In this document: positions 7,298-45,748 of the stretch, one piece after another | How the letters are laid out: every line of letters begins with the position of its first letter | Numbering within the stretch: position 1 is the stretch's first letter | Origin: Marinicauda salina | GTDB lineage: Bacteria; Pseudomonadota; Alphaproteobacteria; Caulobacterales; Maricaulaceae | Reading direction: 5' to 3' | Assembly: GCF_003122085.1 (NCBI RefSeq) | Contig: NZ_QEXV01000001.1 | Span: 868,001-932,000 of the forward strand | DNA: 64,000 bases | Translations under genes and position numbers: made by a program | The notes under the pieces: model-generated | What the model was told of the DNA's origin: nothing | Databases searched by the model: none | Seen by the model: only the letters and a program-made list of their open reading frames with translations

Positions 7298-7376
7298 TGT
7301 CATGGCCGGACTGGTTCCGGCCATCCAGAATCTCACCAGGTGCGGCTGGATCACCGGGACGAGCCCGGTGATGACA
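7298..7376 (+). repeat. REPIN-like inverted palindrome pair, family A copy 1 (short form)
   Basis: 79 bp. The left end (7298-7327, starting TGTCATGGCC) and right end (7347-7376, ending GTGATGACA) are inverted copies of one another, separated by 19 bases. Each end is itself a hairpin: ATGGCCGGA and TCCGGCCAT around a 5-base loop on the left, ATCACCGGG and CCCGGTGAT on the right. It has the same ends as the larger element A2, which starts 27 bases further on, and as A3 at 45662-45748. Confidence 0.85.
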
Positions 7377-7402
7377 CGTTATGGGGGCAACCAGCCTCTA
7401 CC

Positions 7403-7779
7403 TGTCACCGCCGGACTTGTTCCGGCGGTCCAGGCGTCACGAGACGATGTCCTCCCAGAGATCGCGCCAATCGGGGTTCATTGCCTCGATAAGATTGAGC
7501 TTCCAGCGACGCGGATACTTCTTGATGGTCTTCTCGCGCTGAATGGCGAGCCGGACGTCGCCGAAAGTTTCGTACCAGACCAGCATCTTGACGCCGTAAC
7601 GCCGAGTGAAGCCGTCGCCCAGGCCCTCGCGATGCTCGTAGACGCGGCGGATCAGGTCGTTCGTGACGCCGCAATAGAGCGTGCCGTTGCGCCGGCTCGC
7701 CATGATGTACACGAAGTATATGCACTCCATGGTTGTATGGTGCGCCGACTGGATCGCCGGGACAAGCCCGGCGATGACA
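7403..7779. mobile_element. Family A element carrying a GIY-YIG gene inside inverted palindromic ends
   Basis: 377 bp. Left end 7403-7432 (TGTCACCGCC, loop CTTGT) and right end 7750-7779 (ATCGCCGGG, loop ACAAG, ending GATGACA) are inverted relatives of each other and match the ends of the short copies A1 and A3. The 317 bases between them are almost exactly the GIY-YIG gene: its stop lies 4 bases from the left end and its start 19 bases from the right end. This looks like a full-length element whose short copies have lost the gene. A degenerate left-end remnant follows near 7808-7836. Structure is seen directly; mobility is inferred. Confidence 0.7.
7437..7730 (-). CDS. Single-domain GIY-YIG endonuclease-like protein
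   Basis: 97 residues, the UvrC/YhbQ-type minimal GIY-YIG fold (COG2827-like). The two core strands are VYIMAS and TLYCG, followed by the Arg-bearing helix (LIRRVYEHREG) and the conserved Glu in REKTIKKYPRRWK; the ending NPDWRDLW is typical. ATG start at 7730. A homologue (41892-42191) shares the ASRRNGTLYCG stretch and the same overall layout. Small GIY-YIG proteins of this type have no settled function; nicking or repair of branched DNA has been suggested. The gene fills the interior of repeat element A2, so a role in spreading the repeat is possible. Confidence 0.9.
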   Translation of the reverse strand: MECIYFVYIMASRRNGTLYCGVTNDLIRRVYEHREGLGDGFTRRYGVKMLVWYETFGDVRLAIQREKTIKKYPRRWKLNLIEAMNPDWRDLWEDIVS

Positions 7780-33409: not shown

Positions 33410-33462
33410 GGATCGAGGAGAGCCCTTCCCGGCGCGTCTGGCGAATTGTCTGGGAAGACGGC

Positions 33463-33557
33463 GGAAGACCGGACGACGACCCGAGCCGAACTCGTTACGG
33501 CTGCTTCCTTCCGGACCTGACCGGGTTGGCGAGGGGCTCGTCCGCCGCCGGCCTTCC
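33463..33557 (-). ncRNA. ffs: Small signal recognition particle RNA (4.5S)
   Basis: The minus strand carries the SRP RNA domain IV core (GGTCAGGTCCGGAAGGAAGC, within 33499-33522), the binding site of Ffh with the GGAA tetraloop. Flanks pair to close the rod: GGAAGGCCGG at the 5' end with CCGGTCTTCC at the 3' end, and GGACGAGCC with GGCTCGGG-type sequence inside. That gives about 95 nt. The 5' end predicted from pairing agrees with the promoter at 33565-33593. Ends are approximate to a few bases. Confidence 0.92.
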
Positions 33558-33622: not shown

Positions 33623-33874
33623 TCAGATGTCGTCGAGCTGGCGCAGGAAATGGGCGTGCTGGTCGAGGGCGGCGATCAGGCGGGCGTCGCAGAGGTCGGC
33701 GACGAGCGCGTCGCGCCAGCCCTCGATCACGCGTTTCTGGCGGGCGAGCCAGTCGCGCGCGGCGGCCTCCGTCGAGGGCGTGTCGCAGCGCGATGAAACG
33801 CGTTGCAGGTGTTCGAAACCGGTTCCGCTGGCGCGCCCCGCGGGCGACGCATAGGGGATGACGCTGGCTTTCAC
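33623..33874 (-). CDS. Small orphan protein behind a Fur-like palindrome
   Basis: 83 residues, no signal peptide or membrane segment, no domain I recognise. The C-terminal half is helical and charged (ARDWLARQKRVIEGWRDALVADL, then ALDQHAHFLRQLDDI). Start is GTG at 33874, supported by AGGAG 7-8 bases upstream. The promoter region contains the perfect inverted repeat at 33888-33908. Because coding evidence is a ribosome binding site and a plausible sequence only, it is less certain than its neighbours. Fur-type control would point to iron or manganese metabolism (inference). Confidence 0.6.
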   Translation of the reverse strand: MKASVIPYASPAGRASGTGFEHLQRVSSRCDTPSTEAAARDWLARQKRVIEGWRDALVADLCDARLIAALDQHAHFLRQLDDI

Positions 33875-33887
33875 GACTCGTCTCCTG

Positions 33888-33908
33888 AAATGCGACTAAT
33901 TCGCATTT
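33888..33908. promoter_or_regulatory. Fur-box-like inverted repeat
   Basis: AAATGCGA-CTAAT-TCGCATTT: perfect 8-bp arms around 5 bases, continuing into TGCAT on one side. The inner TGCGACT-A-ATTCGCA fits the 7-1-7 layout of Fur boxes (TGxxAATxATTxxCA). It is placed directly upstream of the ribosome binding site of the small gene at 33623-33874, where a bound repressor would block transcription. A TTGACG (-35-like) sequence lies further upstream on the minus strand. Confidence 0.5.
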
Positions 33909-33946
33909 GCATACATTCGGGCGAAAGCGTCAAGCATCACGCCGAC

Positions 33947-33978
33947 GAAAAACCCCCGCGCCGGCGGGCGCGGGGGTT
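33947..33978 (-). terminator. Rho-independent terminator of the outer-membrane protein gene
   Basis: AACCCCCGCGCC and GGCGCGGGGGTT form a 12-bp stem around 4 bases (33951-33978). On the minus strand it is followed at once by a run of T. It lies 34 bases past the stop of the gene ending at 34012. Confidence 0.85.
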
Positions 33979-34011: not shown

Positions 34012-34527
34012 CTAGAACCGGCGCACGTAGCTGACGCCGAATGCGTCGGTCTCGGCGTTGTCGAAGTCGTAGCGCGTGTAGTCGACGCGCACGGCGTTCG
34101 GGCCGGCGAAGGCCCACTCGCCGCCGACGCCGTAGGCGACGCCGTCTTCCTCTTCGCTCAGCGTGACGCCGCCGACGGAGGCCTCGGCCTCCCAGTAGGC
34201 GTAGCCGAGCCGGCCGAAGACCGAGAACTGCTCGTTCACCGGGAACTGCGCCTTGGCGAACGCGCCCAGCCCGTAATCGAGCGAGACGTCGCCGGTCACC
34301 GAGCCCACGGTGACGGATTCGTCGCCGAGGCCGACGAGGACTTCGCCTTCGACGCCGAGATAGGGCGTGAAGTCGTAGCCGCCGCGCAGGTTGAGCGTGT
34401 CGAGCTCGACCTCGTCGGCGTCGAGCCAGGTGTAGCCGCCGCCGACGTGGAACTGGCCGGCGTCCTGGGCGTGTGCGCCGGCCGCGGCGAGAACCGCGGC
34501 GGCGGTGGAGAGGAGGAGGGTTTTCAT
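34012..34527 (-). CDS. Small outer-membrane beta-barrel protein
   Basis: 171 residues: signal peptide (MKTLLLSTAAAVLAAAGAHA), then alternating strands with the aromatic and Gly pattern of an eight-stranded OmpA/Ail-type barrel (FHVGGGYTWLDADEVELDTL, LNLRGGYDFTPYLGVEGE), ending in a terminal Phe (YVRRF) as the BAM signal requires. ATG at 34527 is chosen because the signal peptide begins there; the longer frame adds 53 non-signal residues. Monocistronic, with its own terminator. Function beyond a barrel is unknown. Confidence 0.88.
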   Translation of the reverse strand: MKTLLLSTAAAVLAAAGAHAQDAGQFHVGGGYTWLDADEVELDTLNLRGGYDFTPYLGVEGEVLVGLGDESVTVGSVTGDVSLDYGLGAFAKAQFPVNEQFSVFGRLGYAYWEAEASVGGVTLSEEEDGVAYGVGGEWAFAGPNAVRVDYTRYDFDNAETDAFGVSYVRRF

Positions 34528-45661: not shown

Positions 45662-45748
45662 TGTCATGGCCGGACTTGTTCCGGCCATCCAAGCAAGGAA
45701 GCGCTCCTTGCGCGGGACTGGATCGCCGGGACCGGCCCGGCGATGACA
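45662..45748 (+). repeat. REPIN-like pair, family A copy 3 (short form)
   Basis: 87 bp. Left end 45662-45691 (ATGGCCGGA and TCCGGCCAT around CTTGT) and right end 45719-45748 (ATCGCCGGG and CCCGGCGAT), separated by 27 bases with their own small palindrome (AAGGA-GCGC-TCCTT type). The ends match those of A2, which holds a GIY-YIG gene. It is the first of three repeats in the 424-base fmt-truA gap. Confidence 0.87.

Follow-up and report, generated by a model that had tools for sequence, protein, structure and literature searches.

What does the 83-residue gene beneath the palindrome at this locus do, and under whose control does it stand? The first-pass annotation of the window (the whole stretch of DNA analysed, 64,000 nucleotides, G000:C1:868001–932000 of a 2.89-Mb genome) regarded it as an orphan gene under a Fur-like operator and as a promising candidate for a new factor in iron or manganese stress. 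The iron part of this candidacy has been strengthened, with Fur boxes or receptor linkage at 116 members of its family and with purifying selection in relatives; nothing found in the analysis points to manganese. The best explanation of the sequence data, to which we assign a probability of about 80%, is a Fur-repressed iron-starvation gene, the product of which probably acts as an accessory factor in taking up iron, perhaps as heme. An iron-starvation role under Fur, taken by itself, is very probably correct.

Organization of the small-gene locus

The features of the locus are collected in Table 1. The palindrome directly precedes the ribosome-binding site, as had been claimed, and the gene lies on the minus strand, a point that the claim left unstated; 13 nt separate the palindrome from the GTG start codon. 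The spacing of GTG, box and TTGAC would suit an operator that overlaps a promoter; a consensus scan found no sigma-70 consensus promoter at the small gene. In six relatives (L006, L007, L010, L015, L019 and L021), TTGAC lies 2 nt 5′ of the 21-base site.

Table 1 Features of the small-gene locus, in window coordinates
Feature	Position	Strand	Remarks
Bacterial small SRP RNA gene	33461..33556	-	Downstream neighbour, same strand
Perfect hairpin spanning the stop codon	33603..33625	-	Without a T run behind it
83-aa gene	33623..33874	-	GTG at 33874, stop at 33623; member of an unnamed family of small proteins with a predicted helical hairpin
RBS AGGAGA	33881..33886	-	6 nt 5′ of the GTG
Fur box by sequence	33888..33908	.	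Exact 8-5-8 palindrome, AAATGCGA-CTAAT-TCGCATTT
Possible -35 element TTGAC	33929..33933	-	20 nt before the box; suggested by sequence
Terminator-like site	33955..33968	-	Behind the upstream outer-membrane gene
Outer-membrane beta-barrel protein gene (PF13505)	34012..34527	-	Upstream neighbour, same strand

The hairpin spanning the stop codon, equalled in folding by 3 of 200 shuffles, may separate the small gene from the SRP RNA gene. On the other side, the terminator-like site would set the small gene apart as a separate unit, a weak indication because one such site was found against 0.5 expected from shuffling. A long frame further downstream on the same strand is one that we take to be dnaX. 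Of the 20 relatives' loci scanned (L003–L021 and L024), 16 likewise have the SRP RNA gene after the small gene and in the same orientation; it follows closely at 15 of them and is approximately 900 bp away at L016.

The palindrome as a Fur box

Both 8-base arms of the palindrome, which reads AAATGCGACTAATTCGCATTT on the plus strand (33888–33908), are exact, in agreement with the first-pass annotation. It is the sole match in the window at up to three mismatches (shuffle mean 0.14, with at least one match in 11 of 100 shuffles), and without mismatches it was found at a single place in the genome. Rarity as a matter of mere symmetry was rejected, because 56 exact inverted repeats with 8-base arms share the window (spacers of 3–7 bases, nested versions counted separately), nearly all of them G+C-rich as judged by eye. 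The rare feature is the palindrome's sequence, not its symmetry. Short G+C-rich palindromes, CCGGACTTGTTCCGG-like and CCCTCCCCTTGAGGGGAGGG-like, recur in the window at 7302–7776, 45666–45745, 30283, 40837, 45907 and 45956, and are perhaps dispersed repeats.

Scored with a matrix built from 13 upstream sites of another family, the box reached 30.2 bits, against 8.6 bits for the next-best 21-mer in the 64 kb; with a matrix of 26 same-family sites that excluded the window's own, it reached 29.9 bits and the runner-up 7.5. The box agrees at 13 of 14 informative positions with the Fur consensus TGMGAAT-N-ATTCKCA, which was fitted by eye. By its sequence the palindrome is a Fur box, as the term Fur-like had implied, and Fur is predicted to bind it. 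The further label metal-responsive would suit the promoter; for the protein, such a reading goes beyond the evidence.

The Fur motif before other genes of the genome

For a scan of the genome, a sequence-only model was built from 38 sites at homologues, the window site included, and 150 of 232 candidates were scored. Eight rows at five places were obtained, with the window site at the top (15.3 bits, E 0.09) and the other four places at E 0.27–1.1, each weak when taken alone. Two boxes approximately 50 bp apart precede a TonB receptor frame of 811 residues, the best NCBIfam match of which is to siderophore receptors, below cut-off; two sites precede bfd (PF04324); one precedes the gene of a solute-binding protein (PF13343), followed by a permease gene (PF00528), the putative substrate of these ABC genes being iron; and one lies approximately 195 bp before nuoA (PF00507), at L140:3043–3057, near position 130542 of contig C3. 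The occurrence of the motif before these four genes bears out the check that had been suggested, a search for the palindrome upstream of iron genes. There are also tRNA genes close to the sites before nuoA and the solute-binding gene. According to a study of Caulobacter crescentus, iron limitation raises the expression of TonB receptor genes and lowers that of nuo genes (PMC3751524), an iron response that the nuoA site would fit.

A looser scan with the 19-base core, allowing up to three mismatches, was discarded as too unspecific, with at least 64 matches per strand against 16 for a reversed control. Among the matches listed there were three further places with two mismatches, of which one is the TonB receptor site and two are unlike Fur boxes.

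The genome encodes a fur gene (PF01475 over cut-off, 142 bits), and the best NCBIfam model for its protein is the ferric uptake regulator, at 112.9 of 146 bits and thus below the equivalog cut-off. A second PF01475 match in the genome is weak and over cut-off (24.4 against 23.1 bits), so that the palindrome might serve another regulator of the Fur superfamily, or else an unrelated repressor, with a signal other than iron. The genes at which the motif recurs, bfd, the TonB receptor, the solute-binding gene and nuoA, argue against such an assignment, as do the pairs of boxes before the heme receptor genes of relatives, and we consider it very unlikely.

Distribution of the gene

The orphan reading did not survive. 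The gene is unnamed, but a search with the single protein matched 25 of 99 genomes (its own included), all within the window's family, and a profile built from these matched 102 of the 299 genomes of the order. By family, the 102 comprise 36 in f1 (the window's), 54 in f2, 11 in f5, 1 in f4 and none in f3. Relatives in named genomes (14 loci) come mostly from Maricaulis, with Hyphobacterium in addition; Maricaulis maris DSM 4734 and Hyphobacterium indicum are among the carriers.

Across the class, the first profile matched 2 of 385 genomes, both from the order. A wider profile matched 6 of the 385 class genomes, and 6 of 398 genomes of a phylum sample, the latter all from the order. Two of the class genomes outside the order, G351 and G606, were dropped, their matches lying inside long unrelated frames; the matches in G540 (two places) and G405, also outside the order, are believed to be real. 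A search of plasmid records with one small relative and one 162-residue protein, a neighbour of the gene in distant genomes, gave no match.

Fur boxes and receptor genes at the relatives' loci

The upstream regions of 117 places, comprising all rows of the single-protein and order-wide profile searches, were inspected for a box with at least 12 of the 14 informative positions within 260 bp. A Fur box was found at 100 of them, 16 lie behind a gene for a heme-type TonB receptor, and one, L226 (the second row of G058, E 7.7e-5), is a false match in an unrelated frame with neither box nor receptor. All 116 members thus have either a Fur box of their own or a position behind a heme-type receptor gene.

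Forty of the first 45 places have boxes. The five others (L082–L086) each follow a TonB receptor gene that is itself headed by a pair of boxes; at three of these loci the pair is contained in the longest open frame, upstream of the probable start codon. The next 40 places gave 29 with boxes and 11 behind a receptor gene; boxes are visible before 7 of these 11 receptors, and at the other four the contig or the fetched stretch ends too early. The last 32 places gave 31 with boxes, with L226 as the exception. Boxes were therefore seen before the adjacent receptor gene in 12 of 16 cases, and the 162-residue gene sits between receptor and small gene in 2 of the 16. Listed matches above the cut-off of TIGR01785 (heme/hemoglobin) coincide with 14 of the 16 adjacent receptors. 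For the remaining two, on small contigs of G258 and G307, the genome matches TIGR01785 and the place of the adjacent receptor is not listed. At the loci from named genomes a box was found in 14 of 14, several of which are the same contigs as other loci.

The search seed was written after the first 45 stretches had been seen; the later 72 places gave 60 boxes, 11 receptor-linked positions and the one false match. At each of the 40 boxed loci among the first 45, 0–3 of 200 shuffles of the same stretch reached the box score. As background, the 66.9 kb that remain of 25 loci once the upstream stretches are set aside contained one match, and 39 kb of other loci of the window's own genome contained none. 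The boxed loci are related and are therefore not independent trials.

At L128, a gene for a DUF6607 protein (PF20311; 4601–5686, minus strand) is divergent from a Fur-boxed heme receptor gene, and L130 and L132 have frames of similar appearance at the corresponding position.

Coding evidence and predicted fold of the protein

Fur-repressed small RNAs are a known class, and this short gene has a hairpin at its end. The Fur-controlled product could on these grounds be a RyhB-like small RNA, with the reading frame incidental. Against this stand the in-frame conservation over approximately 40 residues and the substitution pattern of the relatives, with dN/dS at approximately 0.12–0.30 in all nine pairs (dN 0.13–0.31, dS 0.74–1.73) and most changes at third codon positions, again in all nine, one near-even pair included. 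These pairs are of relatives, the window gene having no close relative for comparison. The relatives are under purifying selection, and a small RNA as the product is highly improbable.

The gene is accordingly best read as protein-coding. The conserved core spans approximately residues 38–79, with W42, Q46, W53, L70, H73 and L77, in the pattern W-x3-Q-x6-W followed by L(D/E)xHxx(F/W)L. Across 25 diverse members, invariance is confined to W42, W53 and L77, with Q46 close to it. The AlphaFold model (15 sequences, pTM 0.55) has helices at residues 33–61 and 64–81, a predicted helical hairpin, with a mean pLDDT of approximately 95 over residues 41–80; a helix at 19–29 is of low confidence and the start is disordered. 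No signal peptide or membrane stretch was seen by eye in the small protein, for which a cytoplasmic location is predicted.

The window protein matched no Pfam and no NCBIfam family at E values up to 10, and no family came over the Pfam cut-off for the 25 diverse members or over the NCBIfam cut-off for 10 relatives. The best match, of one member to DUF6437 (E 0.0066), was not taken as kinship. Among solved structures, a structure search gave a best PDB match at E 1.8, which is noise, and a sequence-profile search gave E 0.014 and 0.24 to an unrelated protein. The predicted regulation is of a well-known kind, and the protein family is one without a model in the libraries searched (Pfam and NCBIfam).

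Association with heme receptors

Heme receptors were surveyed with TIGR01785 at E 1e-60, with three candidates scored per genome. Across the 299 genomes, 74 have both the gene and a heme receptor, 28 the gene only, 72 the receptor only and 125 neither, a co-occurrence with a Fisher p of 3e-9, uncorrected for phylogeny. Family f3 accounts for 33 of the 72 genomes with a receptor and no gene. Within the window's family the corresponding counts are 32, 4, 3 and 18, with the 21 gene-less genomes listed. In the window genome, all 27 candidates were scored and no TIGR01785 heme receptor came over cut-off (best stretch 73.7 against 316.85 bits). This missing receptor is the main evidence against a heme-only role, and a role specifically in heme uptake or the use of heme iron stands at somewhat less than even odds.

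The receptor linkage could also be explained by a cytoplasmic protein that binds heme, or traffics heme iron, through histidine or cysteine. The column of H73 holds histidine in 22 of the 25 diverse members, and several members begin with M-C. The invariant W42, W53 and L77 and the near-invariant Q46 are neither histidine nor cysteine, and none of the window genome's heme receptor candidates passes the cut-off; direct heme binding of this kind appears unlikely.

Distant relatives and the 162-residue neighbour

In G540, the two copies of the gene are preceded by Fur-like sites with 12 and 11 of the 14 informative positions. An approximately 162-residue gene lies beside the first copy and none lies within the 1,970 bp available at the second. 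In G405 (L202), a gene for a 162-residue protein, the small gene, bfd and bfr follow one another on one strand, with genes for a FecCD permease and an ABC ATPase nearby that come over the NCBIfam heme-transport cut-off. The 400 bp preceding the G405 small gene contain no box (best 10 of 14), and boxes of 12 lie before bfd and further upstream. Having a Fur-like site of its own, the G405 bfd need not be co-transcribed with the small gene.

This row of genes, and the Fur motif that the bfd of the window genome shares, would fit a partner of Bfd and Bfr that moves iron out of bacterioferritin, or handles the iron released, instead of assisting uptake. The arrangement comes from one genome, in which the small gene is a weak match (E 2.6e-5) with an unclear start codon, and for 16 of the 116 members the preceding gene neighbourhood holds a receptor gene instead; we regard a role in iron release as improbable and favour one in uptake.

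The 162-residue protein was located at L132:6500–6988(+), L172:1673–2155(-), L202:3218–3700(-), L203:1154–1651(+) and L089:881–1351(-). It is conserved, carries cysteine motifs (GCC in most), lies near heme receptors, bfd–bfr or Fur boxes, and gave no Pfam or NCBIfam match. Apart from G405 and G540, L132/L082, L172 and L089 are the only loci examined at which its gene adjoins the small gene, so that most members do without it. As a tentative extension, the hairpin protein and, in some distant members, its 162-residue neighbour with cysteine motifs could form an undescribed alphaproteobacterial iron-starvation module, under Fur and beside heme receptors, bfd–bfr or heme-type ABC genes, that would tune the uptake of heme or iron, or the release of iron, by a mechanism unrelated to HemP/HmuP.

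Proposed mode of action

From these observations we infer Fur binding and repression, and an accessory or regulatory role of the protein. When iron is plentiful, iron-loaded Fur would cover the palindrome next to the ribosome-binding site and the presumed promoter, blocking transcription. When iron falls, Fur would leave, and a small soluble protein made up mainly of two long antiparallel helices would be produced. The hairpin protein would then assist or tune the acquisition or use of iron, perhaps from heme, a role suggested because relatives lie behind heme receptor genes and one lies beside iron-storage genes. A regulatory action of the HemP kind, rather than an enzymatic or chaperone action, is possible and slightly less probable than the heme link itself.

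The arrangement of box or receptor is kept across several families of one order, a strictness matched by few pairings of an operator with a gene of unknown function. The protein may be a new element of the response to iron scarcity in marine bacteria of the Maricaulis type.

Comparison with known systems

A literature search, which did not cover a 2006 survey of the Alphaproteobacteria, found no paper that could be tied to the small family. That survey is said to be a comparative study of alphaproteobacterial iron regulons, in which the gene may be listed as hypothetical.

The Fur site of Caulobacter crescentus is a 19-bp palindrome at iron- and Fur-regulated genes; bfd is strongly induced there by iron limitation and by a fur mutation, and the Fur targets include several hypothetical genes, as given in the available part of the study (PMC3751524). 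None of the regulon genes named in that part could be tied to the small family, and no member of it was found in family f3, which is taken to hold Caulobacter.

Bfd (PF04324) resembles the protein in being small, controlled by a Fur box and linked to iron, and it adjoins the small gene in one distant genome. The small family differs in having neither a match to PF04324, the [2Fe-2S] domain, nor a conserved cysteine, the two cysteines of the window protein (30 and 62) included, and the window genome encodes Bfd separately.

The closest parallel in role is with HemP, HmuP and ChuP, small proteins under Fur control that are reported to be linked to genes of TonB heme receptors and to be required for the use of heme (PMC9131926). 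The small protein shares with them its size and its predicted Fur control, and some of its relatives are encoded next to genes of such receptors. Because some relatives lie directly behind a TonB-dependent heme receptor gene, a role comparable to that of HemP/HmuP is the first guess. The HemP-type family is absent from the Pfam matches of the 25 diverse members and from the NCBIfam matches of the 10 relatives; a position next to a Fur-controlled heme receptor gene is found in 16 of 116 members, and the window genome is without such a receptor over cut-off. The small family also differs from HemP/HmuP in its predicted helical hairpin, and what we propose is a comparable role, not membership of that family. 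The gene orders differ as well: chuP comes first in its operon, according to the same study (PMC9131926), whereas the small gene mostly stands alone or behind the receptor gene.
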